Shown here: one piece after another, positions 1,888 through 62,410 of the stretch | Layout: each line of letters begins with the position of its first letter | Numbering within the stretch: position 1 is the first letter of the stretch | Origin: Methylobacterium segetis | GTDB taxonomy: Bacteria; Pseudomonadota; Alphaproteobacteria; Rhizobiales; Beijerinckiaceae | Direction of reading: 5' to 3' | DNA: 64,000 nt | NCBI RefSeq assembly: GCF_004348265.1 | Contig: NZ_SMNT01000002.1 | Location: forward strand, 1-64,000 | Made by a program: the position numbers and the translations under genes | Notes under the pieces: generated by a model | Database searches by the model: none | What the model was told of the DNA's origin: nothing | The model's input: only the letters and a program-made list of their open reading frames with translations

Positions 1888-4800
1888 TCAGACGAGGTGC
1901 CATCCCGTCTCGATGAAGGACATGAGGTGCTGGTGCGCCTCGTCGCTCTCGGCGATGCCCACCGCGATCGCGGCGCGGGTGCTGCCCTGTGCCAGCAGGC
2001 CCGTCCAATAATCGTGCCCGCTGGTATCGGCCTGCCGCCCAAGGGCGTTCTGGTAGAGCGTGTCGACGAAGGCGGCGTCGGTCAGGCTCGCATATTTCTG
2101 CTGGTACTCGTTCGAGGTCAGCATGCCCTGCGCGGCGTCCCCATCGGCAAGGCCGCCCTTCAGCGCGCCCGTCCAGTATTCCAGGCCACCGGCATCCGGC
2201 GCCCGGTTGAGGATCCCGTAATAGAGCCGGGCCGCGTCGCCTGCATCCGCATCGGCCATGAAGATGCCGGCCGTATAGGCGGGTTGCAGGCCGGCCAGGT
2301 TCTCATCGGAGAAGGCGAAGCTGACCACCGCGTCCGCCCGCGACAGGCCCTGGTCGAGGGCGCTTGTCCACCATTGCACACCGGTCGCCTCGCCCTCGCG
2401 GTCGAGGGCCGTCCGGTACAGGGATTGGATGAAGGACAGGTTGTCGCCGGTGCCGAGATGCGACTGCCCCTCGGCGGAGTCGAGGAAACCCTGGGCGAGC
2501 TCGTGAAGCGACAGACCTGCGCTGTGCAAGCCGGTCCAGTAATTCTGGCCTCCGACGTCGGAGGGTCGGTGCAGCACCGCGTCATAGAGGGCGTAGACCT
2601 CGCCGGCCGCGCTGTGCGGATCGTGGATCACGTCCCCGAAGTAATGCGCATTCTGAGGCTGCGGGCCGCTGACGGTGCCGCCGCTGGTATTGCCCGTGAG
2701 AGTCAGGATGTTGCTCGCCAAGCCGCCGTTGCCGGTCGCATCGGCCCACGCGGACGTGCCGGTTCCGCTCGCCGCGACTTGGATCGAGGCCGACAAGCTG
2801 GCGGTCACAACCGGCGTGAACAGGGCGGTGTAGTGCGTTGCGTCGATCGAGGTGATCGCGCCAAGCGAGCCGCCGCTCAAGCTCAGGTCCTGCGCGTCGA
2901 AGCCGGTCACGCCCTCGCTGAACGTGAAGGCGATGTTCGCCGTCTGCCCAGCCGTCAGGGTCGATGCGTCGGAGGACAGCGTCACGGTCGGCGCCTTTGT
3001 ATCCCCCGCGAGGCTCAGGACGGAACTGGCCGAACCGTTGTTGCCGGCCGCATCGACCCACGAAGCCGTGCCCGTTCCGCTCGCCCCGACCTGGATCGAG
3101 GCTGACAGGGCGTCGGCTGCAACCGGCGTGAACAAGGCGGTGTAGTGGGTGGCGTCGATCGCCGTGAGCGCGCCCAGTGATCCGCCGGTCACGCTCACGT
3201 CCTGCGCATCGAAGCCCGTCACGGTCTCGCTGAAGGTGAAGGCGACGGCTGCCGTCTGACCAGCCTTCAGGCTCGTCGGGTCGGTGGATAGCGTCACGGT
3301 CGGCGGCACGATATCCGCCGCCGGCGGCGTACCCAGTTTGACGACGACATCATGCGTGGTGAGGCCAGCGAGGCTCAGCACGAGGCGAGCCCCCGCCGTG
3401 TCCTGCGTTTGACTGACGATCGTCGCGCCGGTGACCGTGACCGGCTGACCGTTGGGATCCGCCAGATCGAGGGTGACCTGTCCATCACCCGTCACCTGGA
3501 AGGAGAGATTGCGGCCGTCCCCGCTCAGAGACACCAAGTCTGCGCGCATCGGCAACGAGGTGATGTGCGTGACGCGACTGGCACTCGTTCCAAGCTGGAT
3601 GTTGTAGCTCACATTGGCCGCAGACGCCGGGAGGAACACGCTGTCGTCGTCGTAGGCGTACCATTGCCCGGTATTCGTCGACACGCTCGCGATGTGGGAG
3701 CCGGCGTCGAGATCGAGAGCAAAGTTTCCGAGATTGCTTCCGTTGATGTTCGCCGTGACAGTATTGGTGGCGCTGTTGTAATTGTAGTCGAAGGTGGCCT
3801 TCTCCGACGCGGCGACGCGTTCGGCCAAGTCGGCCAACGTGACGAACTCACCGCCTTTGCTATACGCATAGTTGATGAAGCTCGTGTACATGTCGGTTGT
3901 GTAGGGCGACGTGGTGCCGGGTCCATTCGTGGGCCACATCGCCGCTCCGTAATCGTGCCAGGTCCAGATCGCGACAGGGAGATCGGAGTGGGAGCTGAGG
4001 TCGTCGAATTCCTTCTGCCACTCCGCTGCTGCCTGTAGCGCACTCATCCCGCCGCCGAACTCGGGCGCTGCCTCCACGAGGCTGAAATCCGCCTTCATGT
4101 TCGGTGCGAGGAAGATGTGCTGCGTGTCTGTCTGAGACGGCGTCAGATATCCGATGGCGCCGGGGTAATTCGAGCCGACGCCGGTGTATCGGCCCGTGAT
4201 GTAGGAATAGCCGGGGGCCGCTGCGTAGATGTTCTCGTCCGTGCTCAGCGTTTCGGGAGCCCCGGGGAGTGCCGCTCCAACCACCGTATAGCCAGAGAGG
4301 TATTTCTCGATCAAAGTCTTGGAGGCGCCGAACTGATAGGCGAGATCGACAGCGGTGGCGTTCGTATCCTCCGGGTGCGTCATCGTGTGGCTGCCGATCT
4401 CGCCACCGAGCGCGATCAGCTGCTTATAAAACTCAGCCGACTTATTCAGCGACGCCGACGTCCCCGCGATCGTGTCGCTGGCATAGGTATCGGTTTGCCC
4501 ATTACCGATATCGACGTAGTAAGATCCCGCGAAGTTGTAAGCCTGCTTCCATTGCTGAACGATCGGCAGAAATTTGTCATAGATGCCAGGCCCGGCAGTG
4601 GGTTCGACGTCTTCCGGATACATGGCCTGATCCATGTCGACGCGCGTGGCCACGATCGACGCGAAGCGGCTCATCTGCAGGCTCAGTTCAGGGCCGGCCG
4701 GCTTCTGGCTCTGGATGGTGTAGTCCAGCGCATGGGCGAGCATGTTGCTGTCGGCCAGCATGCCTTCCGTCGAGAAAAAGACGTTGTTGCTGCCCGTATG

Positions 4801-5949
4801 CGTGGCGAGAACGGCGTTGAAGGGGCCGGACGCCGTTCCGCCCGTTGTCGTTTGGGTCGCGACGACCTGAGCCGAAGGGTCCACGCCGGAGAAATACGCC
4901 GTCCCGACCTTGGAGGTCGCGTTCTCAGTATAGGTGTGAATAGGGGTGCCGGCCGCGTAGCCGATGATTCCGGCACTATTCCCGGCCGCCGTCACTTGAT
5001 CCGTCGATACGTTGTCGCCGCCGTCCCGCTGGACGCCCAGCAACAGCTTCATGCGGGCGTAGGAATCTCCGGCGAAAGCGGTGTTGTTCTCATCACTGGT
5101 CATGAAATTGCCGGCCGCGATCAAGCTCACGCCGTATTTGTAGACGGCGTCCGACAACGTGTTCTGGATCGTGGAAAGTTCGGCCTGCTTGACGTTGGCA
5201 AACGACGGAAAAATCAAGGTGTCGTATTTCTTGAGCGTGTCGATGTTCGTAAGGTCGGTCTCGGAGAGGACATCATAGGGGATGCCCGCCATCGTCGCTT
5301 GGTTCTGAGCCGCCATGAAGAGATCGGAATAGGCCGTCGTATTGAAATATTTCGCCGCGCTCGTCTCCGAATAGACGATGCCGACTCGCAGCTGACCGTC
5401 GTTGATGTGCGCCGCCGGCGCTCGGATCGTGTATTGCTGGGCGAAACTGCTGGGAAGGAAGACGTTGCTGTCGTTGACGTCGAGAGCGATGCCCAGTCCC
5501 GGCAGAGTGCCCGGCGCAGAGGTCGTTCCGGGCGGCACGAGATTGCTTTGCGGGACGGCGAGTTCAACGGTTTGCTTGTCCGCAGAAAAAGCAAACTGAA
5601 CTCCATTCTGGATCGGCGTTCCATTGCCCGTGGCCGGGTCGAGCGCGAAGAGACTTGGATTGCCGTCTGCGCCGAACTCGATCTTGTACTCTGCTCCGAC
5701 CGAGTTGGTGAAAACCTGATATCCGGTGGTCACGTTGCGATCGGCGTTCAGCCAAATCGTCGTATTCGGACCAAACGACGTTTGCTGCGCTCCAGCGGTG
5801 GTACTCAGTTGGAGAGCGAGGAAGTAGATGTTCGTGCTCGCGTCGAATTTTCCGTAGACGCTGTAGCCAGCGACGGGAGCCGTCGTGTCAATGAGGTCGG
5901 AAGCCGTCCAGTCTTGCTGCAGGCTTCCATCAAGGGTGATGGTTGACAC
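1888..5949 (-). CDS. Large secreted NodB-type polysaccharide deacetylase-like protein with Ig-like and DUF4214 repeats
   Basis: 1,353 residues, GTG start with TTGGAG 8 nt upstream and no Sec signal peptide. Residues 1-170 form a beta-rich domain shared with the 47824-49068 protein. Residues 185-415 look like an amidotransferase/ThuA-type fold (LRVGIVYSE, LIFPSFANVK). Residues 430-720 look like a NodB deacetylase: VDMDQ (Asp438/Asp440), SHTMTHPED (His521/His525), LPGAPE, TWHDY and FVTLADLAERV. About 880-1085 are two Ig-like repeats of about 104 residues. About 1101-1345 are four DUF4214 modules. The missing Sec signal and the DUF4214 tail ending IETGWHLV suggest type I secretion (inference). 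It is divergent from the Pel-like operon, whose own deacetylase domain lacks its key residues, so a role in extracellular Pel deacetylation is proposed. Substrate unknown. Confidence 0.85.
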   Translation of the reverse strand: MSTITLDGSLQQDWTASDLIDTTAPVAGYSVYGKFDASTNIYFLALQLSTTAGAQQTSFGPNTTIWLNADRNVTTGYQVFTNSVGAEYKIEFGADGNPSLFALDPATGNGTPIQNGVQFAFSADKQTVELAVPQSNLVPPGTTSAPGTLPGLGIALDVNDSNVFLPSSFAQQYTIRAPAAHINDGQLRVGIVYSETSAAKYFNTTAYSDLFMAAQNQATMAGIPYDVLSETDLTNIDTLKKYDTLIFPSFANVKQAELSTIQNTLSDAVYKYGVSLIAAGNFMTSDENNTAFAGDSYARMKLLLGVQRDGGDNVSTDQVTAAGNSAGIIGYAAGTPIHTYTENATSKVGTAYFSGVDPSAQVVATQTTTGGTASGPFNAVLATHTGSNNVFFSTEGMLADSNMLAHALDYTIQSQKPAGPELSLQMSRFASIVATRVDMDQAMYPEDVEPTAGPGIYDKFLPIVQQWKQAYNFAGSYYVDIGNGQTDTYASDTIAGTSASLNKSAEFYKQLIALGGEIGSHTMTHPEDTNATAVDLAYQFGASKTLIEKYLSGYTVVGAALPGAPETLSTDENIYAAAPGYSYITGRYTGVGSNYPGAIGYLTPSQTDTQHIFLAPNMKADFSLVEAAPEFGGGMSALQAAAEWQKEFDDLSSHSDLPVAIWTWHDYGAAMWPTNGPGTTSPYTTDMYTSFINYAYSKGGEFVTLADLAERVAASEKATFDYNYNSATNTVTANINGSNLGNFALDLDAGSHIASVSTNTGQWYAYDDDSVFLPASAANVSYNIQLGTSASRVTHITSLPMRADLVSLSGDGRNLSFQVTGDGQVTLDLADPNGQPVTVTGATIVSQTQDTAGARLVLSLAGLTTHDVVVKLGTPPAADIVPPTVTLSTDPTSLKAGQTAAVAFTFSETVTGFDAQDVSVTGGSLGALTAIDATHYTALFTPVAADALSASIQVGASGTGTASWVDAAGNNGSASSVLSLAGDTKAPTVTLSSDASTLTAGQTANIAFTFSEGVTGFDAQDLSLSGGSLGAITSIDATHYTALFTPVVTASLSASIQVAASGTGTSAWADATGNGGLASNILTLTGNTSGGTVSGPQPQNAHYFGDVIHDPHSAAGEVYALYDAVLHRPSDVGGQNYWTGLHSAGLSLHELAQGFLDSAEGQSHLGTGDNLSFIQSLYRTALDREGEATGVQWWTSALDQGLSRADAVVSFAFSDENLAGLQPAYTAGIFMADADAGDAARLYYGILNRAPDAGGLEYWTGALKGGLADGDAAQGMLTSNEYQQKYASLTDAAFVDTLYQNALGRQADTSGHDYWTGLLAQGSTRAAIAVGIAESDEAHQHLMSFIETGWHLV
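2690..3312 (-). repeat. Tandem repeat encoding two near-identical Ig-like domains
   Basis: Two adjacent copies of about 312 bp inside the large deacetylase gene encode nearly the same domain. Both carry PTVTLS at the start, then GFDAQD, IDATHYTALFTPV and SASIQV. The in-frame length and high identity suggest recent duplication or gene conversion and a possible variable spacer between the enzyme part and the DUF4214 tail. Confidence 0.8.
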
Positions 5950-6691
5950 GGCGGTTTCTCCAATATTCTTTCATGAGCGGGATTGCGACGTGCTTGGATG
6001 GTAGCTGTCTTGACTATTGGCCGTGATTTTTGGTTCTCAGTTTTCGAGCTCTAGATATGTCTAAAAGTAATTATCGATTTTCAATGAAGTTTTGGCAGCA
6101 AATTTAATGTCACTATACTATATCTACGATTAATCCGCGTGGGCAGGAAAACAAGATTTACTTAAAGACAAGACTAAATTGAGCTTTTTCGTATGAACTC
6201 ACGACGTACTGAGATCGGCAAGTGGTAATTCACTCGGTGATCTCATCGAGACGGCTTCCATCACTCACGGGGGCATCTTGGTCTCCCTGAGCGGCGCCGG
6301 TTGCCAGGTCGCATTCGCTCGAGTGGGCAAAGAAGATCGTGCGCGCTGCTCGGAGAGAGCGCGTGAACGGTATTGTCGGGGACAAAGTGTGCCTCCGACC
6401 GGGCCGATTTGCCTATTTCTCGATCAAACCATAGTTTGATGACAACATTCCGCCTGAACCTCCGGCGTTATGTTTCTGCGCCTTAAATGGAATGCAAATT
6501 GAAGGAAACTTCAATCTAGCTCAAAGGTAGTAACTTATACTAACCACTATGAGCCCTGGCTTTGGATCCGGCGGCGGCTCTATCCAGAAATTGCAAAGGC
6601 GACGCTGCCCTGTGTTCGTCACGAGGGTCGACCGGACGGTGTCGACGTTCCCGCCGTGGGGCGAGAACTTCTCTAGCAAGGCGACCGGCAC
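5950..6691. other. AT-rich divergent intergenic region between the secreted deacetylase and the Pel-like operon
   Basis: 742 bp without a convincing gene. The part from about 6000 to 6250 is far richer in A/T than the surrounding DNA, as expected of a control region. Both flanking genes point outward, so it must hold two divergent promoters. I could not assign -35/-10 boxes with confidence. One inverted repeat (6423-6440) is listed separately. Short open frames here have no start signals or recognisable product. Confidence 0.7.
6423..6440. promoter_or_regulatory. Candidate operator: 7-bp inverted repeat upstream of the Pel-like operon
   Basis: ATCAAAC-CATA-GTTTGAT, perfect arms with a 4-nt spacer, about 250 bp before the PelA-like start. 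The size suits a dimeric regulator, but nothing shows which protein binds. Confidence 0.35.
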
Positions 6692-8974
6692 GTGGGATCG
6701 AGGCGCGGAGCGGCCCTGTCTGTTCTTCGGCGTAGGGTTGCGATCGCGTGCGCGGTCGCGGTGGCGGGCTTCGGCTGTGCCGTGCCACAGGCGCCGGCAG
6801 CGGCCGGACCGGAGGCCGGCCCCGTCATTCCCCGCGAGATCCTGGCTCTCTACGACGGCGCCCTGGAACGGGCGGCCGCAGAGACGCGGATCCATCGCTA
6901 CGCGGAGCTGCCGCTCAATCACCTCGGCTTCACCGTCACCTATCGCGATATCCGCGGGCCGCTGCCGGATCCGAGAGAGACCCGGCGCTATGCGGGCGTC
7001 CTGACCTGGTTTGCCGCGCCGCCCGCCTCCCGCGAGGCCTACCTGTCCTGGTCGCGCTCCGCAGTGCGGACGGCCAGGCGCTGGGTCATTCTCGGGACGA
7101 CCGGTGCCGCCTTCTGGACCGACGATGCCGAGACGGGCGACGCGCTGCTGGGCGAGATTGGGCTCAGGCACCGCCGCAAGGCGATCGACCTGACACTCGG
7201 CACCCAGATCGAATCGCGTGCGCCCGCTTTGACCGCCTTCGAGGGCGTGCCCGACCCCGTCTTGCCGACCTACGAGGTCGTGGAAGCCGCCGGACCCGAT
7301 CTGGAGACGTGGCAGGAATTGCGCCTGCCTCAGCGCGACGGCGGTGGCCGCAGCGTGACCGTGGCGGTGAGCCCGCGGGGCGGCTACGCGGCAGGCGGCT
7401 TCGAGATCGTCGAGGATCCGGGTCAGGGCCTCGCCCGCTGGCTGATCGATCCCTTCGCCTTCTTCGCGCGCGCGTTCCGCGACGGGCCCGCGCCGATGCC
7501 CGATGTGACGACCCTGTCCGGGCGGCGGATCTACTTCAGCCATGTCGAGAGCGAGGGCCTCAACAACGTCGTCCTCACGCGCGAGAAGGAGCAGGTGCTC
7601 GTGGCGCGGCTCTTCCTCGAGCGGGTCGTCGACGCTTTTCCGGACCTGCCCGTCACCTTCGCCCTGACACCGGGCGATCTCGACCCGACCATCGGTGGCA
7701 ACGAGACGCCGCGCGACATCGTGCGGGAGATCTGGGCGCTTCCGCAGGTCGAGCCGAGCGTCTCATCCTACACGCGGCCGTTCACGTGGCGCTTCTTCGA
7801 CGGGTACAGCCGGGCCCGGGAAGAGGAACTCGTCGCCGCGACCCGCCCGCCCGGACGCTTCGGGCTCCGACGCCTGACCGACCTCGTCAGCAGCGCAGCG
7901 CGCGTCGACCGCTTCGTCGCCAAGGCCCGCGAGTTTCCCCGCACCTACCTGCTGACGCCCTTCGACCTCGGCCAGGAAACCACCACCGCCCTGTCGGTCG
8001 CGAAGGATCTCGCGCCGCGCGCCAAGGGCGTGCACCTCTTCCAGTGGACGGGCGATGCGCAGCCTTCCGAAGAAGCCATTGCAGCGACGCGCAGCCTCGG
8101 GCTCCTCAACATCAACGGCGGGGAGGCGCGCTTCGATGCGACCTACCGGTCGGTCGCGCATCTGCCGCCGCTCACGCGCCCTGTCGGCGCGCAACGGCAG
8201 GTCTACGCCGTCTCCGGCGACGACCTGCCCGTCAGCAAGCTCTGGCGCTCGTCCGTCGCGAGCCTGCGCGGCTTGCGGACGACACTTGCTGCGACCGAGA
8301 CGCCGCGGCGTCTGACAGCCTTCAATCTGCATTACCGGCTGGCAGCCGTCGGAAACGCCGACGCGCTGGAGGTGATCGAGGGATATCTGCGCGAGGCCGA
8401 GGGTTCAGACCTCATCCCGATCCGGACGGGCGCCTATGCGGCGCTCGCGGACGATTTCTCGCGCGTCGAAATCGCGCGCGCCGGGGCCCGGCGCTGGGAG
8501 GTGCGGAACCGGGGCAGCGTGCAGACGCTCCGGTTCGACGAAGCCGAGGCGATCGAGGCCGATCTCGCCGCCTCTCGCGGCGTGATCGGGCAGACACGCC
8601 GCGGCGGCGCCCTCTATCTGACCCTCGATTCGAGCGTCGAACCCGTGCTTGTGGCCCTGCGGGACGGTGCCGACGCCTCGCGCGTCGTCGGCCTCTCGGA
8701 AAGCCGCTGGCAGGTATCGAGCCTGTCGCGGGACGAGGCGGGGTGGCGCTTCGCGGCATCCGGGTTCGGCCCGGGCGTGTTCCGGTGGTCCGACGCGCCG
8801 CCTGGTCGGTACGCCGTCACGGTCCACCGCGCCGAACGGCTCCTGTGGTCGGGCAACGCCGAGGCGGACTCGGTGGGGCGCCTTGCCTTCACGGTACCGG
8901 CCGCGGGTGCCGAGGCAGTCCGGATCAGCGTCGAATCGCTCAACGACGAGGGAGGCGGCGGTGTCCATCGCTAG
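6692..8974 (+). CDS. pelA: PelA-like protein, deacetylase-family domain with apparently lost catalytic residues
   Basis: 760 residues. The GTG start gives an N-terminal hydrophobic signal (VAIACAVAVAGFGCAV), so it is predicted periplasmic. It resembles the C-terminal two thirds of PelA (reductase-like plus deacetylase) without the GH114 part, which is a separate gene at 16729. Around residue 284 it reads FSHVESEGL where family members have SHxDGDG. At 354-366 it reads VSSYTRPFTW where members have SHTYSHPF-W. The metal-binding Asp and both His therefore appear replaced (E286/E288, S358, R362), and deacetylase activity is doubtful. It may act as a scaffold or polymer-binding factor. First gene of the operon; its last 14 nt overlap the next gene. 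The alignment is from memory of the family and should be verified. Confidence 0.75.
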   Translation: MGSRRGAALSVLRRRVAIACAVAVAGFGCAVPQAPAAAGPEAGPVIPREILALYDGALERAAAETRIHRYAELPLNHLGFTVTYRDIRGPLPDPRETRRYAGVLTWFAAPPASREAYLSWSRSAVRTARRWVILGTTGAAFWTDDAETGDALLGEIGLRHRRKAIDLTLGTQIESRAPALTAFEGVPDPVLPTYEVVEAAGPDLETWQELRLPQRDGGGRSVTVAVSPRGGYAAGGFEIVEDPGQGLARWLIDPFAFFARAFRDGPAPMPDVTTLSGRRIYFSHVESEGLNNVVLTREKEQVLVARLFLERVVDAFPDLPVTFALTPGDLDPTIGGNETPRDIVREIWALPQVEPSVSSYTRPFTWRFFDGYSRAREEELVAATRPPGRFGLRRLTDLVSSAARVDRFVAKAREFPRTYLLTPFDLGQETTTALSVAKDLAPRAKGVHLFQWTGDAQPSEEAIAATRSLGLLNINGGEARFDATYRSVAHLPPLTRPVGAQRQVYAVSGDDLPVSKLWRSSVASLRGLRTTLAATETPRRLTAFNLHYRLAAVGNADALEVIEGYLREAEGSDLIPIRTGAYAALADDFSRVEIARAGARRWEVRNRGSVQTLRFDEAEAIEADLAASRGVIGQTRRGGALYLTLDSSVEPVLVALRDGADASRVVGLSESRWQVSSLSRDEAGWRFAASGFGPGVFRWSDAPPGRYAVTVHRAERLLWSGNAEADSVGRLAFTVPAAGAEAVRISVESLNDEGGGGVHR

Positions 8975-10337: not shown

Positions 10338-11428
10338 TCGCAGCACGGACCACACGGGACCCTCTGACGGCCGCCGCACCGGAACGGGCTCCGGATGATG
10401 CGAGCTGGCTCACCCGCCGCCTGTCGGGCATGCGCGGCAAGTACGAGGCGTGCTTCCTCTTCCTGCTCCTGATGATCATCGAGTGGATCATCCCGGGGCC
10501 GGCCTCGCTCGCGCAGATCGCACCGCACCCGTTCTGGATCCCCGTGGTGCTGCTCAGCGTGCAGTACGGCAGCGGTACGGGCCTCGCGGTGGCCGCTTTG
10601 GCCGCCGGGCTGAGCTGGATGGCGGGATGGCCGCCCCAGACCTCGCAGGAGGATTTCTACACCTACTCCCTTCGGGTCTGGCGCGAGCCCGTCCTGTGGA
10701 TCCTCTGCGCCATCGTGATCGGCGGCCTGCGCAACCGGCAGATCCGTGAGCGCCTCGCGCTGGAGGAGCGCCTCCGGATCACCGAGGAGCAGCGCGACAC
10801 GATCGCGGGCTTCTGCCACGAATTGCAGGAGCATGCCGCGGTCAACGAGCGACGGGCGGCCACCGCCCGCGCCGGATCGCTGGAAGCCGGGCTGGCGAGC
10901 CTCGAGCGGCTGCGCTCGGCGGGCGGGCGTGAGATCACGAGCGCGCTTCAGGGCGCGGTCGAAGCGTGGCTCGGGAACGCCCGCTGGACCTATTATCCGA
11001 TCCAGGATGGCGAGCTGCGCCACGCCCATGCCGAGCGCGCCCGGCTCGACGCCTGCTTCCCGGTGCGCGCGGCCCTGGTCTACGCGGTCGCCTGCCATCG
11101 CCTGCGTGTCCTCAGCGTGTTCGACGAGACCGAGGCCAACCTCCTCGACGGGGTCGGCATCTTCGCCACGGCGGTCCGGACGGGTGACGCGGCCACGGGG
11201 CTCGGACTTCTCGTTCTGGAGACGGTGCCGCCCGAGCGGCTCGATGCGGCCAGCGCCGCCGCGGTGGCGGTGATCGCCGACGCCCTCGGCGAGGCGGCCG
11301 GCCGGGCGCGCGGGCGCGGCCCTTGCCACGATGTCCGGCATCCGGTTGGTCCCGATCCGGACACGCTCGAATTCCGGTTCCCGCATCCCGCCGCGGCGCA
11401 CTCGATCTCCGCGGGAGACGCACCATGA
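10334..11428 (+). CDS. pelD: PelD-like inner-membrane GAF protein lacking the GGDEF domain
   Basis: 364 residues, GTG start in a GTGA overlap with the preceding gene. Three to four hydrophobic segments (about residues 35-135: CFLFLLLMIIEWIIPG, FWIPVVLLSV, LAVAALAAGLSW, LWILCAIVIGG) are followed by a charged, probably coiled linker (RERLALEERLRITEEQRDTI). A GAF-like domain spans about 160-325. PelD of Pseudomonas has about 455 residues and ends with a degenerate GGDEF whose RxxD site binds c-di-GMP. Here the chain stops after the GAF domain with a Pro/His-rich tail, so that receptor is missing. It probably still assembles the PelDEFG inner-membrane synthase complex, but control must differ. 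Confidence 0.8.
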   Translation: MIAARTTRDPLTAAAPERAPDDASWLTRRLSGMRGKYEACFLFLLLMIIEWIIPGPASLAQIAPHPFWIPVVLLSVQYGSGTGLAVAALAAGLSWMAGWPPQTSQEDFYTYSLRVWREPVLWILCAIVIGGLRNRQIRERLALEERLRITEEQRDTIAGFCHELQEHAAVNERRAATARAGSLEAGLASLERLRSAGGREITSALQGAVEAWLGNARWTYYPIQDGELRHAHAERARLDACFPVRAALVYAVACHRLRVLSVFDETEANLLDGVGIFATAVRTGDAATGLGLLVLETVPPERLDAASAAAVAVIADALGEAAGRARGRGPCHDVRHPVGPDPDTLEFRFPHPAAAHSISAGDAP

Positions 11429-12423
11429 GCTCCCAGAGCTTCGCAGCGCGCCTGTCGGCCGGGCCTGTCCTCGCCCTTCTTTTCCTGCTCGCGGCAGAAT
11501 CCGCATTGCTGACCGCATGGCTCCAGGAAGCCCTTTCGGAGGCGGCCGCACTCGCCGCGCACGGCGTGGTGCTGCTCGCCTTTCTCGCGCGGCGGGCCGT
11601 CTTCGCGGAGGACCTGACGATCCACGTCGTCGCATTGCTGCTCGCCGCGTGCAGCGGTCCGGCCGGCGCGGCGGCGGCCCTCGTCCTCTACGTCGTCCTC
11701 GCGCGGACGCCGGTCAGCCATCATGAATTGGAGAGCTGGTACCGGCAGATCTCAGGCGTCGGCGAGGCGAACCCGGCCGTCGCGCTCCATGCCCAGATCG
11801 TCGACGGTCGAGCCCGGCGGGCGGGCCGCGTCTCCATCGACCATTTTCCCAGCGTCCTCGAAGGTGCGCTCACCCAGCAACAGGCGCTCCTCGGGCTGAT
11901 CGGCCTCGCCTACCACCCCGATTACCGGCCCCTTCTGGGCCAGGCCCTCCGCAGCGCCGAGCCGAGCATCCGGGTCCACGCGGCCGCGGTCTCGGTCAAG
12001 CTGCGCGCCCGCGCCCGGCTGGAATTCCAGAAGGCCCGGGGGCGCGATCACCGCGCGGAGCCGCCAGCCAGCTTGTTCTCCCGGGCCACGGAACTCGCTC
12101 GCCTCGCGGCGGGCGGCTTTCTCGACGAGGCCGACGCCCGGAACGCCCGAGAGGTCGCGGCCGGGCTCTGTGAGGAAACCCTGACGCTGATCCCGGAGCA
12201 CCGCCCGGCACACGTGCTCCTCTGCACCCTGCTCGCACAGCTCGGCCGCTGGGAGGACGTGATCGCCCGATCCGCCGCGACACCCTTCCGTCGGGGCGAT
12301 CCCCAGGCCGAGGCCCTGACGCAGAGCCTGATGCAACTGGGCCGGACGAAGGAGCTTCACGCAATCCTCGCCCGCACAGCGGGTGCGGAAGCCCTGGGAG
12401 GCGGCCATGCGCTTCCTGTCTAG
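11425..12423 (+). CDS. pelE: PelE-like membrane protein of the Pel synthase complex
   Basis: 332 residues, close to the 329 of Pseudomonas PelE. The ATG at 11425 overlaps the pelD stop (ATGA). The N-terminus has two hydrophobic segments (VLALLFLLAAESALLTAWL and VVALLLAACSGPAGAAAALV) on either side of a short hydrophobic stretch, and the rest is soluble and alpha-helical with TPR-like pairs (AREVAAGLCEETLTLIPEHR, LLCTLLAQLGRWEDVIARS). In the known system PelE joins PelD, PelF and PelG at the inner membrane. Identification rests on architecture, length and gene order rather than on a strong sequence signature. Confidence 0.75.
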   Translation: MSSQSFAARLSAGPVLALLFLLAAESALLTAWLQEALSEAAALAAHGVVLLAFLARRAVFAEDLTIHVVALLLAACSGPAGAAAALVLYVVLARTPVSHHELESWYRQISGVGEANPAVALHAQIVDGRARRAGRVSIDHFPSVLEGALTQQQALLGLIGLAYHPDYRPLLGQALRSAEPSIRVHAAAVSVKLRARARLEFQKARGRDHRAEPPASLFSRATELARLAAGGFLDEADARNAREVAAGLCEETLTLIPEHRPAHVLLCTLLAQLGRWEDVIARSAATPFRRGDPQAEALTQSLMQLGRTKELHAILARTAGAEALGGGHALPV

Positions 12424-13945
12424 GCCGCTGCCCGAGCCGCCGGAAGCGGATGTCTGCCTCGTGGTCGAGGGCTGCTATCCCTATGTGCGTGGCGGCGTCT
12501 CGACCTGGATCGACTGGCTGATCCGCGGCAATCCGAACCTCACCTTCTCCATCGTCGCGATCGTGGCCGGCGCCGGACCACGCGAGATCCGCTTCAAGCT
12601 GCCGGAGAACGTCGTCGCGTTCTGCGATCTGCACCTGCACGCGGATTTTCGCGCCGAGCCCTGGCAGGAGGGCGTGCGCACGGCCGAGACCGAGGAGGCC
12701 CTCGCCGAGCAGCTGATCTCCCTCGTGCGAGGCGGCGGATTGGAGGCCTTCGACCGGCTGGTGCGTCTCGTGAACGACCCCGACCACGGGCTGTCGCACG
12801 CGAGCCTGATGGCCTCGCCGCTCTCCTGGCGCGTGACATGCCAGATGTACGAGCGGCTGATGCCGCACGCCTCGTTCCTGCACTTCTTCTGGGCGTGGCG
12901 TGCGCTGTTCGGCGGCCTCTTCGCCGTTCTCAAGGCCCCGCTTCCCCGGGCCCGGGTCTACCACACGATCTCCACGGGCTATGCGGGATTGCTGGCGGCG
13001 CGGGCCGCCCTGGAGACCGGCAGGCCGGCCATCATCACCGAGCACGGCATCTACACGAACGAGCGCCGCGTCGAGATCCTGATGGCCGAGTGGATCTGCG
13101 ACACGGTCGACAAGGGGATTTCGCTCAGCGATGACCGCGTCGACCTTCGTGACATCTGGATGCAGATCTTCGATGCGCACGCGTTGATCTGCTATCAGGC
13201 CTGCCGCCGGATCATCACGCTCTACGAGGACAACCAGCGTCTTCAGATGGCGCTCGGCGCGTCACCCTCGCGGCTCGCCATCATTGCCAACGGCATCGAC
13301 GTCGCGGGCTTCGCCGCCCTGCTTCCGGCGGCCGCGGAGAGCCGGCCGACGATGGCTCTGATCGGCCGCGTGGTCCCGATCAAGGACGTGAAGTCCTACA
13401 TCGAGGCGGCCGGGATCCTGCGGCGGCGCCTGCCGGGCCTGCGTGCCCTGGTTTTGGGGCCCACCGACGAGGATCAGGTCTATTTCGAGGAATGCCTCGA
13501 CCTCGTGCGCGAGCTTGAGCTCGGCGACACGGTCGAGTTCACCGGGGCTGTGAAGCTCGTCGAGTTTCTCTCCCAGATTCACGTCGTCGTTCTCACGAGC
13601 CTCAGCGAGGCGCAGCCGCTCGTCATCCTGGAAGCGGGGGCCGCCGGGATACCCTGCGTCGCCACCGACGTCGGATCCTGTCGCGAGATCCTGGAGGGAC
13701 GCTCCTCCGAGGAACCCCGCCTCGGCCCCGGAGGCGCGGTCACGCCCCTCGTCAGCCCCACGGACACGGCAGGGGCCGTCGAGCGCCTGCTGCGCGACGA
13801 GACTCTTCGACGGCAGCAAGGCGAGACCCTGCGCACCCGGGTCCGCCGCTATTACGCCTCGGAGGACGCGCTCGCGGCCTATCGGGAGACCTACGCCCAC
13901 TATCTCGCGCCCGCCCGGGCCGAAGATGCGCGCTCCGGGAGCTAG
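12407..13945 (+). CDS. pelF: PelF-type GT4 glycosyltransferase
   Basis: 512 residues. The ATG at 12407 follows GGGAGGCGGCC and overlaps pelE by 17 nt. Cytosolic polymerising glycosyltransferase of the Pel pathway; in Pseudomonas it uses UDP-GalNAc. The N-terminus has the DUF3492 signature (CLVVEGCYPYVRGGVSTWID). The middle carries ITEHGIYTNERR, and the C-terminal half is a GT-B domain with IANGID, ALIGRVVPIKDVKSYIEA and the EX7E motif in SLSEAQPLVILEAGAAGIP. Length matches PelF (about 507). This is the strongest single marker that the locus is Pel-like. Confidence 0.93.
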   Translation: MRFLSRPLPEPPEADVCLVVEGCYPYVRGGVSTWIDWLIRGNPNLTFSIVAIVAGAGPREIRFKLPENVVAFCDLHLHADFRAEPWQEGVRTAETEEALAEQLISLVRGGGLEAFDRLVRLVNDPDHGLSHASLMASPLSWRVTCQMYERLMPHASFLHFFWAWRALFGGLFAVLKAPLPRARVYHTISTGYAGLLAARAALETGRPAIITEHGIYTNERRVEILMAEWICDTVDKGISLSDDRVDLRDIWMQIFDAHALICYQACRRIITLYEDNQRLQMALGASPSRLAIIANGIDVAGFAALLPAAAESRPTMALIGRVVPIKDVKSYIEAAGILRRRLPGLRALVLGPTDEDQVYFEECLDLVRELELGDTVEFTGAVKLVEFLSQIHVVVLTSLSEAQPLVILEAGAAGIPCVATDVGSCREILEGRSSEEPRLGPGGAVTPLVSPTDTAGAVERLLRDETLRRQQGETLRTRVRRYYASEDALAAYRETYAHYLAPARAEDARSGS

Positions 13946-13950
13946 GGCAC

Positions 13951-15351
13951 ATGGCCGGGATCGGATTCGAGCTGAGGCGTCTGGGCAGCCGCGACGAGAT
14001 CCTCGGGCCGGTGGCCGCCGTCGCGCATGCCGCGATCGTGGCGGCGGGGCCTTGGCTCTACACGGTCATGGCAATTCTCGTGATCGGAGAGGCGGCTGCG
14101 CCGCTGATCGGCGAGGACGCGATGGCGACCTTCCGCGTGCTGGTCGTCTACGTGTTCTCCCTGTCCCTCGTCGGTACGTCGCCGGTGGCGATGGTCGGCA
14201 CCCGTGTGCTCGCGGACGCGCTCTACCGGCGCCAGTACGACGACGTGCGCTCCGTCTTCGTCCTCACGCTGCTCGCCGCGAGCGCCGCGACCGCCATCCT
14301 CTCGGTCCTCGCCTTCGTGCTGCTTCTGCGGGTGCCCTTCGACGTGGCTGTCACGGGGATCGCGGGCGCGCAGATCGTCAGCATGGTCTGGGTCGGGCTC
14401 GCCTTCTGCGGGGCCGTGCGCGACTATCTTCAGGTGACGCTCGCATTCGTCACGGGGCTTCTCGCGGGCGCGGGCCTCGCCGTCGTCGCCGCGGGACACG
14501 GCTACGGGCCGGTTCCGATGGTCTGGGGCCTCTCGGCGGGCTTCATGATCGTCTTTCTGTGGCTCACGGCGCGTTTCTCGGCGACCTTCCCCGCTCCCTG
14601 CCGAAGCCTCGCTTCGGTCCAGGCCGCTTTCGTCTCGCGCTTGCGTTGCACCCCCTGGTTGGCGGTGGGCGCGACGGCCGGCGCGGTCAGCGTCTGGATC
14701 GACAAATGGATCATCTGGACGAGCGACTACGGTGAGCGCGTCGAGGCCGGCCTGATCCACGCGCCGATCTACGACGGCCCCATGTTCATCGCGAGCCTGA
14801 CGGTGGTGCCGGCGCTCGCGCTCTTCGTCACCAGCCTCGAGACGACGTTCTTCGATCGCTACCGAGCCTACTTCCTCGCGATCGACACGCACGCGACCCT
14901 CAAGACGATCCGCGCGCAGGGACGCATCCTGGAGCGGGAGACGATCCGCACCCTCGCCAACATCATGGTGGTGCAGACGGCCCTGTGCGTGATCGTGGTG
15001 CTCACGGCGCCGGCCATCGTCGAGGCGGTGGGCCTCCAGTTCCGGCAGATCGGAATCCTGCGCATGGGCACGGTCGGCGCCCTGTTCCAGTACCTGTTCA
15101 TGTCCTGCTCGGCGCTGCTGATCTTCTTCGACGCGACCCGCGTCTACGCCGCGCTTCAGATCCTCTTCCTGACGAGCCTCGCCATCCTCACGGCCGTCGT
15201 CTCGCAGTTCGGGCCGGGCAGCCTCGGCACCGGGTACATGCTGGCCTGCATCGTCTCCGGCTTCGCCTCGCTCTTCGCGCTCATCCGGGTGCTCGGGTCG
15301 ATCGATTATCGCGTGTTCGTGGGCAGCGCGACGCAGGCGCGTCCGGTCTGA
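13951..15351 (+). CDS. pelG: PelG-type polysaccharide transporter
   Basis: 466 residues, about the length of PelG (456). Multi-spanning inner-membrane protein (roughly 12 hydrophobic segments) of the MATE/PST-like superfamily that moves the growing chain across the inner membrane with PelF. It begins MAGIGFELRRLG, the typical PelG start, and carries LVGTSPVAMVGTRVLAD and LRMGTVGALFQYLFMS. The start lies 5 nt after the pelF stop, so the two are certainly co-transcribed. Confidence 0.92.
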   Translation: MAGIGFELRRLGSRDEILGPVAAVAHAAIVAAGPWLYTVMAILVIGEAAAPLIGEDAMATFRVLVVYVFSLSLVGTSPVAMVGTRVLADALYRRQYDDVRSVFVLTLLAASAATAILSVLAFVLLLRVPFDVAVTGIAGAQIVSMVWVGLAFCGAVRDYLQVTLAFVTGLLAGAGLAVVAAGHGYGPVPMVWGLSAGFMIVFLWLTARFSATFPAPCRSLASVQAAFVSRLRCTPWLAVGATAGAVSVWIDKWIIWTSDYGERVEAGLIHAPIYDGPMFIASLTVVPALALFVTSLETTFFDRYRAYFLAIDTHATLKTIRAQGRILERETIRTLANIMVVQTALCVIVVLTAPAIVEAVGLQFRQIGILRMGTVGALFQYLFMSCSALLIFFDATRVYAALQILFLTSLAILTAVVSQFGPGSLGTGYMLACIVSGFASLFALIRVLGSIDYRVFVGSATQARPV

Positions 15352-15376
15352 CGGATCTTTGGGCAGGGAGGGGACG

Positions 15377-16732
15377 ATGGGATTGCACCGGCCATTCGAC
15401 GGACGCCGCGCCGGGTCTCGCGGATCGTGGCTGCTGCTGATCGCGGGGCTTCTCGCCCTGCTCGCCGCCCCCGCACGGGCCGCCGGTGACACCGTGCTGC
15501 GTGCCGGCGACCGGCTCAAGGTGATGATCTTCGAGACGATGGAGGTTCCGGAGCCACCCGAGGTCGACAAGCCGCGCAGCGGCGACGCGACCGCCGTCAT
15601 GCAGACGGTCTACCCGCGGGTCGATCTCTCGGGCGAGTACGGCGTCGAGCCGGGCGGCTCCGTGGTGCTGCCCCTCTTCGGGGGCATCGAGGCGGCGGGG
15701 CGCACGACCGCGGCCTTCAGGGCCGATCTCGGTGACGCCTTCGACCGCATGTTCCACCGCCGCTGCAACATCACGGTCTCGATCCTGCAGCGGGCGCCCG
15801 TCTACGTCGTGGGCGCGGTGCGCAACCCGGGATCCTTCGCCTACGTGCCGGGGCTTATGGTCCTGCAGGCCGTGGCGCTCGCGGGCGGCGACAACCAGAA
15901 TGGCCTGCCGGCCCAGGCGATCGAGGCGAGCCGCGAGCAGGAGCGGCGCGATGCGGCGCGCGACCGCCTCAAGCAACTCCTGCTGCGCAAGGCGGCGCTG
16001 GTCGCCGAGCGGGATGGGGCGCCTGTCGCCAAGGCCGCCGACGGACTGCGCCAGCTCGTCGGTGCGGACGGCTCGGCCTCGCTGATCGCGGGCGAGCAGC
16101 GCATGGCTCAGCTGCGCCTGCAGAATCTCGCGAGCGCGCGGGCGACGCGCGAGCGTGCGATCACCGCCACCCAGGATGAGATCGAACTCCTGAAGCAGCG
16201 GATGGCGAATTTCGACGCGCAGATCAGGGTGCGCGGCGAGAGGCTCAAGATGATGGAGGCCCTGTTCGCCCGTCAGGTGGTGGAGAACGAGCGGGTCGCC
16301 GACGTGCGCCGCGACTACGTCGACATGGAGGGCCGCCGCCGCGACATCGAGATCAGCCTCCTCCAGGCCGAGCAGCGACTCGAGACCGCCCGCAAGGCCC
16401 TGGTCCAGGCAGACCTCGAGCGCCGCCTGACCCTGGAGCGGGATCTCGCGACCGTGGAGAGCGAGGCGGACGCCGCGGAGCGGGCCTATCACGCTCTCGC
16501 CGCGACGGCGACGCTGATGGCGCGGTCGAGCCCGACGGCCGGCCGGGAAGGGGGCGTGCTGACCTTCGAGATCGTGCGCCGCACGATCGAGACGACCGAC
16601 ACGCTGCGCGCCGGCGAACTCGACGCTCTGGAGCCCGGCGACGTGCTGCGCGTGCGGCTCTCGCCGCCCGAGACGAGCCGCCCCGCAACCGCGTCCGTCG
16701 AGAAGGAGGCGGCTCTCGGGGGAGCGCCATGA
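15377..16732 (+). CDS. Wza/ExoF-type polysaccharide export protein
   Basis: 451 residues from the ATG at 15377 behind GGGAGGGGACG; an in-frame TTG at 15359 is less likely. Signal peptide (SWLLLIAGLLALLAAPARAA) followed by a Poly_export domain (GDTVLRAGDRLKVMIFET), a second beta-grasp/SLBB part (YVVGAVRNPGSFAYVPGLMV) and a long coiled coil (about residues 180-380, for example ARATRERAITATQDEIELLK). The layout recalls rhizobial ExoF/GumB-like export proteins. Classical pel loci use PelB and PelC to cross the outer membrane; neither is seen here, so this protein probably replaces them. Confidence 0.82.
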   Translation: MGLHRPFDGRRAGSRGSWLLLIAGLLALLAAPARAAGDTVLRAGDRLKVMIFETMEVPEPPEVDKPRSGDATAVMQTVYPRVDLSGEYGVEPGGSVVLPLFGGIEAAGRTTAAFRADLGDAFDRMFHRRCNITVSILQRAPVYVVGAVRNPGSFAYVPGLMVLQAVALAGGDNQNGLPAQAIEASREQERRDAARDRLKQLLLRKAALVAERDGAPVAKAADGLRQLVGADGSASLIAGEQRMAQLRLQNLASARATRERAITATQDEIELLKQRMANFDAQIRVRGERLKMMEALFARQVVENERVADVRRDYVDMEGRRRDIEISLLQAEQRLETARKALVQADLERRLTLERDLATVESEADAAERAYHALAATATLMARSSPTAGREGGVLTFEIVRRTIETTDTLRAGELDALEPGDVLRVRLSPPETSRPATASVEKEAALGGAP

Positions 16733-17646
16733 GCATCGCCATGAGCCGCCGCACGCTCCTGACCTCGGGTTTCTTTGGACTCGCGGCGCTGGCCGGTCTC
16801 GGCGCTGCGCCCCTGATCGGGCGGCGCGTGTCGGCCCGCCTCGACGGCGTCGAGGTCTCGCGCTGGGGCTGCCAATATCAGCAGATCGATCTCGACCGTG
16901 TCGCGGCCTCCGCCCTCGACCTGATCGTCCTCGACCCGGTCGTGGATGGCGCGCGGATCAACATCGCCGAGAGCCCGAACCTGCGCGTCAGGCCCGATGG
17001 CGGCCGGCGCCTGGTGCTGGCCTATCTCAGCGTCGGAGAGGCCGAGAGCTACCGCTCCTACTGGCAGGCCTCGTGGCGCGAGGCGCCGCCGGACTGGCTC
17101 GGGCCGGAGAACCCGCGCTGGCCCGGCAGTTTCGCCGTGCGCTACTGGCACCCCTCCTGGCAATCGATGATCACGGGGGAGGGGGGTGCAATCGAGGCCC
17201 TCTGTGCCGCCGGCTTCGATGGCGTCTTCCTCGACCGCGTCGACGCGTATGGCGATTGGCGCGAGCGCGAGACCGCAGCTCGCCGCGAGATGATCGACCT
17301 GATCGCTCGGCTCTCGGCCCGCGCAAAGGCGCTCAGGCCCGGATTCGTCGTCGTCGCGCAGAACGCGGAGCCGCTCCTGATGAACGAGGCCTATTGCGGC
17401 GCGATCGACGCCGTCAGCAAGGAGAGCCTTCTCTACAACCTGCACGGGGCCGGCGTGGAGAACACGGACGACGATATCCGCTGGAGCCTCACCTACCTCG
17501 AGCGCGCGCGCGGCTACGGTCTGCCCATCCTGGCGATCGAGTATCTCGACGATGCGGTGACGCGGCTGCGTGCGCGGGCGCGCCTCAGCCGCCTCGGTTT
17601 CGTACCCTTCTTCGGGAATCGATTGCTCGACCGCCTCCCGTCTTGA
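16729..17646 (+). CDS. GH114 endo-alpha-1,4-polygalactosaminidase-like protein (stand-alone PelA hydrolase half)
   Basis: 305 residues with an ATGA overlap to the export gene. N-terminal signal with twin Arg (MSRRTLLTSGFFGLAALAG), so periplasmic or extracellular, possibly Tat-exported. GH114 barrel motifs: LAYLSVGEAESYRSYW, GFDGVFLDRVDAYG (Asp169), VVVAQNAEPLL and SKESLLYN (Glu232, matching the catalytic Glu region of the PelA hydrolase). The family cleaves partly deacetylated galactosamine polymers. In Pseudomonas this domain is the N-terminal part of PelA; here it closes the operon as its own gene. The catalytic residues appear intact. Confidence 0.88.
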   Translation: MSIAMSRRTLLTSGFFGLAALAGLGAAPLIGRRVSARLDGVEVSRWGCQYQQIDLDRVAASALDLIVLDPVVDGARINIAESPNLRVRPDGGRRLVLAYLSVGEAESYRSYWQASWREAPPDWLGPENPRWPGSFAVRYWHPSWQSMITGEGGAIEALCAAGFDGVFLDRVDAYGDWRERETAARREMIDLIARLSARAKALRPGFVVVAQNAEPLLMNEAYCGAIDAVSKESLLYNLHGAGVENTDDDIRWSLTYLERARGYGLPILAIEYLDDAVTRLRARARLSRLGFVPFFGNRLLDRLPS

Positions 17647-17695
17647 GCCGCCTCCGCTCGGCAGGGTGGGCACCCCGCCGGGCGGCCCGCGGAGA

Positions 17696-18367
17696 CTATT
17701 TCGGGTAGATGCCGTGCTCGCGCGCCCAGATCGCGGCCTGCGTGCGGTTCTGCGTCTTGAGCTTGCGGAGGATGTTCTTGACGTGGATTTTCACGGTCGC
17801 CTCGGCGAGGTCGAACTTGAGGGCGATCACCTTGTTCGAGGCCCCGTCCGCGAGGCAGCGCAACACGTTGAGCTCGCGGCTTGAGAGCGGGTGGCAGGGC
17901 GCCGCCTCGGCCTCGTCCGCGCCCGCGACGATGATCTGCTGCCCGGGCAAGGACTCGGGGCCGATGCGCGCGCGATCGACCATCCACGAGAACAGGTTGG
18001 CCGACTGGACCGTCACGCCGGACATCACGGCGTCGAGCGCCTTGATCAGCGTCTCGCGCCCGATGTCCCGGTCGAGGACCGCCTGCGCGGTCAGGCAGAG
18101 GTCCCTTGGCAGTGAGGCCGGGGCATCGGGACGCCCGAAGATCACGAGGAGCGCGTCCGCGCGCGCGGCGCGAAGGGCCCGCGCCGTGTCGACGCTGGCG
18201 CCGTCATCGAGCGAGGCGAGAACCAGAAGGGGCTCGCCCTCCGGTCCGGACGCCGCATCGCTCGGGTGGATGGTCGTGACTTGAAAGCGTGTCCCGTTCA
18301 GGAAGGAGGTCAGACCCTCCCGCACGAACGAACGAACTCGACGCCACGAGAGCCGTCGGAACAACAT
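17696..18367 (-). CDS. LuxR-family regulator with receiver-like N-terminus
   Basis: 223 residues from the ATG at 18367; an upstream in-frame ATG (18475) adds only low-complexity sequence. The C-terminus is a LuxR/FixJ helix-turn-helix (PLSSRELNVLRCLADGASN, ATVKIHVKNILRKLKTQN). The N-terminal 130 residues follow the beta-alpha pattern of a receiver domain (LLVLASLDDGAS, ALLVIFGRPDAP, VLDRDIGRETLIKALDAV) but lack an obvious acidic pocket and phospho-acceptor Asp, so it may be unphosphorylated. Convergent with the Pel-like operon, 49 bp from its end, which makes it a candidate regulator of that operon. Confidence 0.85.
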   Translation of the reverse strand: MLFRRLSWRRVRSFVREGLTSFLNGTRFQVTTIHPSDAASGPEGEPLLVLASLDDGASVDTARALRAARADALLVIFGRPDAPASLPRDLCLTAQAVLDRDIGRETLIKALDAVMSGVTVQSANLFSWMVDRARIGPESLPGQQIIVAGADEAEAAPCHPLSSRELNVLRCLADGASNKVIALKFDLAEATVKIHVKNILRKLKTQNRTQAAIWAREHGIYPK

Positions 18368-18621
18368 CACCGGATGACATGTCGGTGCTCCCCTCGCCAA
18401 CGAGGTGTGGACGTTACTGGACGGTGCATCAGCACGAGCCTGTCTCGCCCTGGCTCGCGGGCGATCAGCGCACATGGAAAGCCCTTCTGTTCTTGCCGCT
18501 GCGAGACTTCATGCCGAAAAAGTCGGCGTCGCGGGAATAACGTTCTTCTCTAATCGAGCCGGATGTTTCATTCTTGCGCGCCATAGCGCGAGTGATCGAT
18601 TGTCTCACGCCGTACATATCC

Positions 18622-18658
18622 AGGTACTAATCATTAACATTTGCAGGAATTAGTACCT
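18622..18658. promoter_or_regulatory. 10-bp perfect inverted repeat followed by a T-run
   Basis: AGGTACTAAT and ATTAGTACCT separated by 17 nt, followed by TTTT. Either a paired operator (half-site centres about 27 bp apart) or a terminator-like hairpin with a long loop. Its position far from any upstream plus-strand gene end favours an operator. Confidence 0.45.
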
Positions 18659-18718
18659 TTTTGTCAACTAACTTACTGGATATCAACGAATAGTTAACCT
18701 TCTATACGAAATTCCTAG

Positions 18719-18734
18719 CGCTCAATATTGAGCG
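18719..18734. promoter_or_regulatory. 16-bp perfect palindrome, candidate operator
   Basis: CGCTCAATATTGAGCG, perfectly self-complementary, in AT-rich DNA 126 bp before the DUF6894 start and about 350 bp before the LuxR-type start. The shape suits a homodimeric helix-turn-helix protein. Confidence 0.45.
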
Positions 18735-18859
18735 TTGCAACATCTTATTAGGATCGTGCGCTTTCGCGCGTTGCGGTGGGCGGAGATGAGACGTCTCGCC
18801 GGCAAGGCTTCTCCTGCGGCGCCGCTTCCCTCGCCGCGCCCTATCTGTGGCGGATCCTG

Positions 18860-19072: not shown

Positions 19073-19077
19073 GCTGC

Positions 19078-61211: not shown

Positions 61212-61387
61212 GGAGGGATCTCCGGACGCGTCCCGGCTCGTGCGGCGGGCACGCGCGTCTGACAGAGGGAGAGGGCGCGCGGAGCTTCGCGCGCGAGATG
61301 GTTCGGGACCGGCCGCCCCGTCGGTCTGTCCGAGAGGGGCGCGGGTCGGGCACGCATCACGTCCGGCGGATCGCCGGGCGGGACGCC

Positions 61388-62368: not shown

Positions 62369-62410
62369 GATCGTGGTCCGTCGTCTGAAGGAATCGGGAT
62401 GCGAGAGCCT

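Follow-up and report, generated by a model that had tools for sequence, protein, structure and literature searches.

The window analysed here, a 64,000-nucleotide stretch of Methylobacterium segetis DNA (contig NZ_SMNT01000002.1, positions 1 to 64,000), carries a Pel-type exopolysaccharide locus in which the genes for polymer modification and export depart from the classical arrangement. Eight plus-strand genes in intact reading frames, overlapping or abutting one another from 6692 to 17646, occur in the order pelA′–TPR–pelD′–pelE–pelF–pelG–OPX–GH114, OPX denoting an outer-membrane polysaccharide export protein. The PelD/E/F/G-like genes stand in canonical order, as a first-pass annotation of this DNA had reported: pelD′ (10334..11428) encodes membrane segments and a GAF-like part; a pelE-like gene (11425..12423) encodes hydrophobic segments and TPR; pelF (12383..13945; alternative start at 12407) encodes the GT4 polymer synthase (NCBIfam PelF, 425 bits against a cut-off of 100); and pelG (13951..15351) encodes the inner-membrane transporter (Pfam PelG, 345 bits), with closest named relatives in Methylobacterium planeticum (79%) and Methylobacterium sp. 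J-090 (63%). A minus-strand gene for a 1,353-residue protein (1888..5949), adjoining glmS, is divergent from pelA′; the 742 bp in between (5950..6691; G+C 50%) presumably contain both divergent promoters. These genomic facts are solid and define a real, recurring Pel variant, more unusual than first proposed: beyond what had been annotated, the active site of PelA is lost, PelD lacks its GGDEF domain and the divergent protein has, in its structure model, a PelA fold.

The 760-residue product of pelA′ (6692..8974; start codon uncertain by about ten codons) has no Pfam match and aligns to residues 251–845 of the solved PelA of P. thermotolerans (9cgy; E 7e-39), on which its structure model superposes with a Z-score of 38.8 over 584 residues. 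Since this match excludes the hydrolase domain and a stand-alone GH114/TM1410-type hydrolase gene with a twin-arginine-like leader closes the operon (16729..17646; Pfam 71 bits, TIGR01370 197 bits), PelA is split in two, and both halves had been recognized in the earlier annotation. The GH114 protein, which matches the PelA hydrolase domain 5tcb more weakly (E 3e-9), is by sequence the counterpart of that domain. In the PelA of P. aeruginosa, D528 is described as the base, D530, H600, and H604 as metal ligands and H761 as the acid, and alanine mutants of the equivalents of the first four are reported to be inactive in P. thermotolerans (PMC12022489). All four metal and base residues as well as the acid are altered in the window (D528E, D530E, H600S, H604R, and H761R), within the motifs HVESEG (7541–7558), SSYTR (7763–7777), and HYRLAAV (8330–8350).

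The same loss recurs among relatives, labelled here by G plus a number for a genome and L plus a number for a pel locus of the comparison set; duplicate rows (L046=L014, L049=L039, L050=L034, L056=L042, L070=L038, L078=L044, L087=L036, and L098=L016) were removed before counting. PelA was found in seven of the ten pel-positive genomes of the genus sample; D528 and both histidines are altered in all seven, and D530 in six (G028 retains it). At the J-090 locus (L047), both aspartates are retained and both histidines lost. The catalytic acid has become Arg in the window and in L011 and L013; L014, L015, and L047 still have His. Outside the genus, the site is also lost in L037 and in Aureimonas endophytica (L081), and retained in Aureimonas ureilytica (L074), in Bosea (L044) and in Hyphomicrobium and Pseudovibrio loci. 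The deacetylase region of PelA′ is under purifying selection (dN/dS 0.15–0.22 in three of three pairs), which argues that the dead domain has been retained for some role. To judge by its residues, the PelA-like protein would be a pseudo-deacetylase; its fold, the lost residues, and the purifying selection point to a non-catalytic periplasmic subunit that may bind the polymer or act as a scaffold.

In the divergent protein, four DUF4214 and two Big_12 matches are recognized by Pfam, whereas a NodB match stays below threshold (17.2 against 23.1 bits). The first-pass annotation had described a secreted NodB-type protein of 1,353 residues: the open reading frame and its DUF4214 stretches are as described, the NodB assignment holds at sub-threshold level in the window, and secretion is a deduction. 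Among 11 relatives scanned, four (L013, L015, L016, and L069) match a NodB-type deacetylase above the Pfam cut-off. The predicted PelA-like core (about 3325–5427) precedes a tail of secretion type composed of Big_12 and the four DUF4214 stretches (1888–3330). A structure model of the core, encoded by 3325–5427 (mean pLDDT 82.5), finds its best VIA-align match in PelA 9cgy (Z 23.1, root-mean-square deviation 5.1, 544 residues aligned, 12% identity), with residues 5–698 overlaying 243–926, i.e., the whole of PelA minus the hydrolase domain; the next row has a Z-score of 20.8 over 246 residues. In the model, then, the divergent core shares the domain arrangement of PelA without its hydrolase. The motifs that PelA′ has lost are present here (TRVDMDQ at 4627–4647, GSHTMTHP at 4372–4395, and WTWHDYG at 3946–3966), and all 22 divergent sequences examined have R-x-DMDQ, H-x-x-x-H, and W-x-WHDY intact, residue roles being assigned by analogy. 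By the same analogy, the protein has the D-x-D, the H-x-x-x-H, and the C-terminal catalytic His of family CE21. Because Arg always replaces the His (H526) found two residues before the catalytic Asp in CE21 PelA (22 of 22 sequences), and because the deacetylase region gives no profile match, it was not assigned to CE21.

The divergent gene occurs in window-type loci in two deep forms (window, L011, and L014 versus L013, L015, L047, L230, and L231), the neighbouring pel genes being closer to one another; the L013 copy lies at L013:15353–18775, and G030 carries one copy of each form on separate contigs. The tails differ as well. DUF4214 forms the tail in the window and in three of the 11 relatives scanned (L011, L013, and L014), and RTX repeats, a classic mark of type I secretion, in the other eight (L015, L016, L035, L038, L040, L069, L071, and L081), five of which end in a serralysin-type C-terminal domain. 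It is therefore the deacetylase core that tracks pel, and not, as the co-occurrence of a DUF4214–NodB gene proposed as a check would have it, the DUF4214 tail. The two deep forms and the differing tails suggest that genes and tails have been exchanged repeatedly at a single position. The RTX tails of the relatives make a type I route likely for the divergent family and, through tail exchange, for the window protein, to judge by sequence. At L037, L035, and L040, genes for an ABC transporter and an HlyD adaptor adjoin the divergent gene, at L037 in line with a whole pel set.

Within the genus sample, PelG was found in 10 of 79 genomes; within the order sample, it exceeded the cut-off in 13 of 397, two genomes below the cut-off being counted as pel-negative. 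A full-length divergent core (at least 873 bits) was present in all 10 pel-positive and none of the 69 pel-negative genomes of the genus, and in 7 of the 13 pel-positive and none of the 384 pel-negative genomes of the order sample, the remaining matches listed lying below 30 bits. The association with pel genes, whose failure had been named as a ground for abandoning the subtype, is thus plainly there. Over the pel-positive genomes of the order, the core is found in 15 of 21, and in a further 49 pel-positive genomes searched, in 3. In G063 the divergent gene and pelG are on separate long contigs, each at a distance from the contig ends, and are thus non-adjacent, so that their co-occurrence there is not mere linkage; in G015 and G065 they lie on different contigs, near contig ends.

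The state of PelA and the presence of the divergent gene are complementary. Among 40 genomes with both traits readable, 15 combine a dead or absent PelA with the gene, 2 an intact PelA with the gene, 22 an intact PelA without it, and 1 a dead PelA without it; counted by gene, the 17 carriers include 15 whose PelA is dead or absent, and the 23 non-carriers include 22 whose PelA is intact (Fisher p 5e-8, kinship ignored). For 16 of the 22 genomes with intact PelA and no gene, the reading of PelA covers the pel locus alone. The genomes of L071 (no genome-wide PelA search) and L081 were left out of this table, and of 46 further genomes without the gene, 16 with intact PelA and that of L083 were kept and 29 were dropped, the four PelA columns not all being visible. 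On a quick tree of PelF and PelG from 45 loci, the PelA state changes at least six times and the divergent gene at least six times; minus L083, the minima are five and six, gain and loss not being separable. Between the sister loci of Aureimonas endophytica (L081) and A. ureilytica (L074), both traits switch jointly.

The export side of the locus has been rebuilt too. Since the operon genes overlap or abut throughout, neither a PelB barrel nor PelC could be encoded between them. Searches of the complete window genome and of the 21 pel-positive genomes of the order, with PF24604 and with an alphaproteobacterial barrel alignment, revealed a PelB barrel in none. The whole-genome search for PelC was likewise empty; made with one eight-row alignment lacking a positive control, it is weak evidence of absence, and no conclusion drawn here depends on PelC being missing from the genome. 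Nor did an ordinary PelA–PelB–PelC set, anticipated as a possible counterexample, come to light elsewhere in related genomes. The pelB position is occupied by a gene for a 458-residue TPR protein (8961..10337) with an N-terminal hydrophobic segment and no beta-barrel. Its identification as PelB by sequence was abandoned, the similarity being that of TPR in general, and the label "PelB without barrel" therefore rests on gene order.

ExoF is an export protein of the OPX/Wza type. The presence of such a protein, already annotated, is borne out by the gene downstream of pelG (15359..16732), in which Poly_export (44 bits) and SLBB (28 bits), both above cut-off, are accompanied by a long coiled-coil-like stretch and a C-terminal stretch. 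The OPX profile matches Wza and PslD, and the long stretch resembles type I secretion adaptors (LipC match). A Pel-type OPX, at 367 bits or more, occurs in 14 of the 21 pel-positive genomes of the order and accompanies all ten dead-site PelA seen there (G000, G006, G019, G022, G028, G030, G047, G417, L047, and L081). Further OPX loci have an intact PelA (L043, L044, and L074), and no dead PelA without OPX was seen in the order. HlyD adaptors that match the OPX profile at about 215–225 bits through the coiled-coil stretch (L035, L037 as a second match, and L040) were not counted, and a 204-bit match in L056 was left out as well. OPX is a candidate replacement of the PelB barrel and PelC.

Two other locus types were observed. 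Devosia/Pelagibacterium-type loci (L035, L038, L040, and L071) are reduced to PelE, PelF, PelG, GH114, a short TPR protein, and a divergent enzyme of 1,900 residues, with a short PelD remnant (open reading frames of 187–266 residues). Hyphomicrobium-type loci (L034, at 14192–19901, L036, L039, L048, and L059) encode an intact PelA; their pelG is accompanied by three or four GH114 genes, and the stretch contains no OPX gene.

PelD′ is shortened at its C-terminus. The window protein extends 28 residues beyond the reference column of the PelD alignment and stops shortly after the GAF-like part, pelE starting on an ATGA overlap. All 37 Hyphomicrobiales-type rows (29 distinct loci) have at most 56 residues past this column, some of them being unaligned at the GAF column too, whereas most canonical rows have about 110–140 residues and an RxxD-like site. 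By sequence, the window PelD matches no relevant solved structure, whereas canonical PelD does match one. As read from these alignments, the window PelD is without the c-di-GMP-binding GGDEF domain (RxxD). With this receptor domain gone, post-translational control by c-di-GMP is probably gone as well, and control may rest on transcription.

A mechanism can be proposed from these elements. By homology, PelF would make a GalNAc-type polymer that PelG, with PelD′ and PelE, would move across the inner membrane. Attended by PelA′ as non-catalytic subunit, the polymer would leave through the OPX channel in place of the PelB barrel and PelC funnel; the divergent protein would be exported by type I secretion and deacetylate the polymer outside the cell, and the stand-alone GH114 enzyme may trim it. 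In P. aeruginosa, a PelA D528A mutant is reported to have no extracellular Pel, PelC is proposed to guide deacetylated, cationic Pel to PelB, and the export of fully acetylated Pel is treated as unresolved (PMC10269871). Against that background, a dead PelA makes sense given another deacetylase and another exit. The order of events may have been that the barrel was swapped for OPX, which removed the need for charge, whereupon deacetylation moved outside and the periplasmic site decayed; OPX loci with intact PelA, and the lack of a dead PelA without OPX in the order, fit such an OPX-first sequence.

The proposal of a distinct alphaproteobacterial Pel subtype with rebuilt modification and export is supported by these counts of barrel, OPX and divergent core, in nested form: the split PelA and the GGDEF-less PelD extend across the Hyphomicrobiales loci seen, and of these only some have OPX and only some the divergent gene. 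We lean towards the view, and hold it to be moderately probable, that this is a Pel-type locus with rearranged modification and export, in which the polymer exits by OPX, the divergent protein deacetylates it extracellularly and PelA′ is non-catalytic. The fuller proposition—a new Pel architecture in which uncharged polymer leaves via OPX, a secreted look-alike deacetylates it, PelA is a pseudoenzyme and PelD is not gated by c-di-GMP, with several handovers—seems to us evenly poised between right and wrong. The arrangement suggests that deacetylation, which other bacteria carry out within the envelope, has here been shifted to the cell exterior.

Several observations weigh against extracellular deacetylation combined with OPX export. 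On the enzyme side, profile–profile comparison of the divergent deacetylase with PelA yielded no match in the deacetylase region, and the top Foldseek matches of the divergent model are CE4 deacetylases and GH42 galactosidases, PelA ranking first only by VIA-align; a claim of sequence homology was therefore dropped, and the link to PelA is structural and model-based. The L013 copy is 49% identical to the window divergent protein, compared with 67–89% for the other pel proteins; as the gene has been exchanged between loci, it may serve more than the Pel polymer. ABC and HlyD genes surround the divergent gene in only 3 of 22 loci and were not found beside that of the window, in a search confined to the neighbourhood, exporters elsewhere in the genome not having been sought. 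On the export side, PF24604 detected one of two positive controls (Methyloversatilis) and failed on the other (Azospirillum); the alphaproteobacterial barrel alignment detected both and gave one weak, short match in G047 (E 0.016, 33 positions). The three Devosia-type genomes searched (G383, G426, and G435) carry the divergent gene and neither PelA nor a Pel-type OPX (best matches 71, 68, and 175 bits), so that OPX is not a general condition. Finally, of five independent pairs on supported branches, four are as expected and the fifth is equal or opposite (sign test p 0.125); with so few pairs, the association is strong in number and not yet demonstrably independent of descent.

The individual exceptions speak for another explanation, namely that the divergent deacetylase works in the matrix as an accessory enzyme, further modifying or remodelling the polymer, and that the loss of PelA activity is unrelated to it; the polymer would remain acetylated while in the periplasm and would need no charge for export. 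L069 combines an intact PelA with the divergent gene; in G417, which also carries the gene, one PelA is dead and a second pel locus encodes an intact one; and L083 (Bryobacterales, another phylum) encodes a PelA without the catalytic half of the deacetylase (L083:2–1462), followed by a long PelB-like protein with a barrel-like C-terminus, in a genome in which a search found no deacetylase of the divergent family. An accessory role would, however, leave unaccounted for the divergent gene in 15 of 16 genomes with dead or absent PelA, its lack in 22 of 24 with intact PelA, and the joint switch in the Aureimonas sister pair, and we consider it unlikely, albeit with an appreciable chance of being correct. 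Alternatively, the altered PelA might have acquired a new chemistry, with E-x-E for D-x-D, the divergent protein acting on some other glycan such as peptidoglycan or lipopolysaccharide. The conservation of the altered residues in Methylobacterium PelA (HVESEG in six of seven, SYTRP in seven of seven) and the purifying selection on the altered region speak for such a change. Yet every altered PelA in which the region is present has changes at both metal-binding histidines, the altered forms vary between clades (L037 and L081) as expected of loss, and no pel-negative genome of the samples has the divergent gene, which together render a new chemistry improbable. Ordinary drift, in which a decaying Pel locus carries along an adhesin-like neighbour on the same island, could draw on the lower G+C content of the divergent gene (63% versus 71% in the pel operon) and on the patchy presence of pel in the genus (10 of 79). 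Against intact operon frames, dN/dS values of 0.12–0.34 versus L011, and the non-neighbouring divergent gene and pelG of G063, it appears very improbable.

Convergent with the operon lies a LuxR/NarL-type regulator gene (17696..18475, minus strand) with a GerE helix-turn-helix, as annotated before. By BLAST, a close copy (80–84%) adjoins the operon in L011 and L013, and none was seen by the operon in L012, L014, or L015. An Rfam scan of the window returned no family. Elsewhere in the window, an open reading frame for a TonB-dependent receptor (59109–63005, minus strand, 1,298 residues) has its plug and barrel confined to the second half, the first 650 residues being without a Pfam match at E 1e-5. 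Downstream of the pel locus of G047 lies a 3,270-residue haem-peroxidase protein with RTX repeats, together with an ABC exporter (L012:6579–18217).

Among biofilm polymers Pel is widespread, and deacetylation by PelA is regarded as indispensable. According to a study from 2025, the deacetylase residues are conserved in full-length PelA homologues, and the activities may be essential to species possessing a pel operon; its full-length filter is given as more than 85% coverage (PMC12022489), so that a split PelA would fall outside that survey. Whether deacetylation has to come before export can be tested directly in a lineage that combines a dead PelA with an intact look-alike and lacks a PelB barrel; judged by sequence, the divergent protein would be a candidate deacetylase for GalNAc polymers and PelA′ a natural pseudoenzyme. 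That pel genes of the outer membrane can be lost or rearranged is already described (PMC7112194), and free-living Rickettsiales are reported to have a derived pel cluster that includes likely equivalents of PelB and PelE (PMC9352585). In the open-access literature (titles and beginnings of abstracts among the entries listed, subscription papers and preprints being outside), no description came to light of a PelA that is dead by nature, of a second, secreted PelA-like deacetylase or of an OPX exporter for Pel, and no entry dealt with Pel in Methylobacterium or Hyphomicrobiales; nor did a PelD lacking GGDEF turn up for any Gram-negative bacterium, in searches none of which was aimed at PelD.

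Compared with pelABCDEFG of P. aeruginosa, the classical Pel system, whose polymer is a partly deacetylated alpha-1,4-GalNAc chain, the locus shares PelF, PelG, the PelD/PelE-like order, the fold of PelA, a TPR gene at the place of pelB, and an enzyme like the PelA hydrolase. It differs in that PelA is split and its site lost, the PelB barrel is absent, PelC was not seen, PelD lacks GGDEF, an OPX is present, and a second PelA-like deacetylase carries a DUF4214 or RTX tail. Agd3 of the fungus Aspergillus fumigatus acts outside the cell, as is proposed here for the divergent protein. It was not among the 50 VIA-align rows for the divergent model, and against the window PelA′ model it reached only a Z-score of 11.8 (root-mean-square deviation 10.3). 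Agd3 (CE18) has CE4-like motifs and is reported to deacetylate the GalNAc-containing galactosaminogalactan (PMC12022489, PMC13254593). A split PelA is by itself not new, being described for Gram-positive pelDEADAFG loci (PMC7112168). In that of Bacillus cereus ATCC 10987, PelADA and PelAH are separate and deacetylation is modelled to occur as the polymer leaves the outermost membrane; PelADA is reported as active and membrane-tethered there, and PelD as binding c-di-GMP via its GGDEF domain (PMC7112168, PMC13254593), in contrast to the dead PelA′ and GGDEF-less PelD′ of the window, which belong to a cell with an outer membrane. With Wza- and PslD-type export, the locus has in common the Poly_export and SLBB domains and the profile matches; it differs from these systems in that its OPX is tied to a Pel synthase core, has no co-polymerase gene in the operon and contains a stretch resembling type I adaptors.

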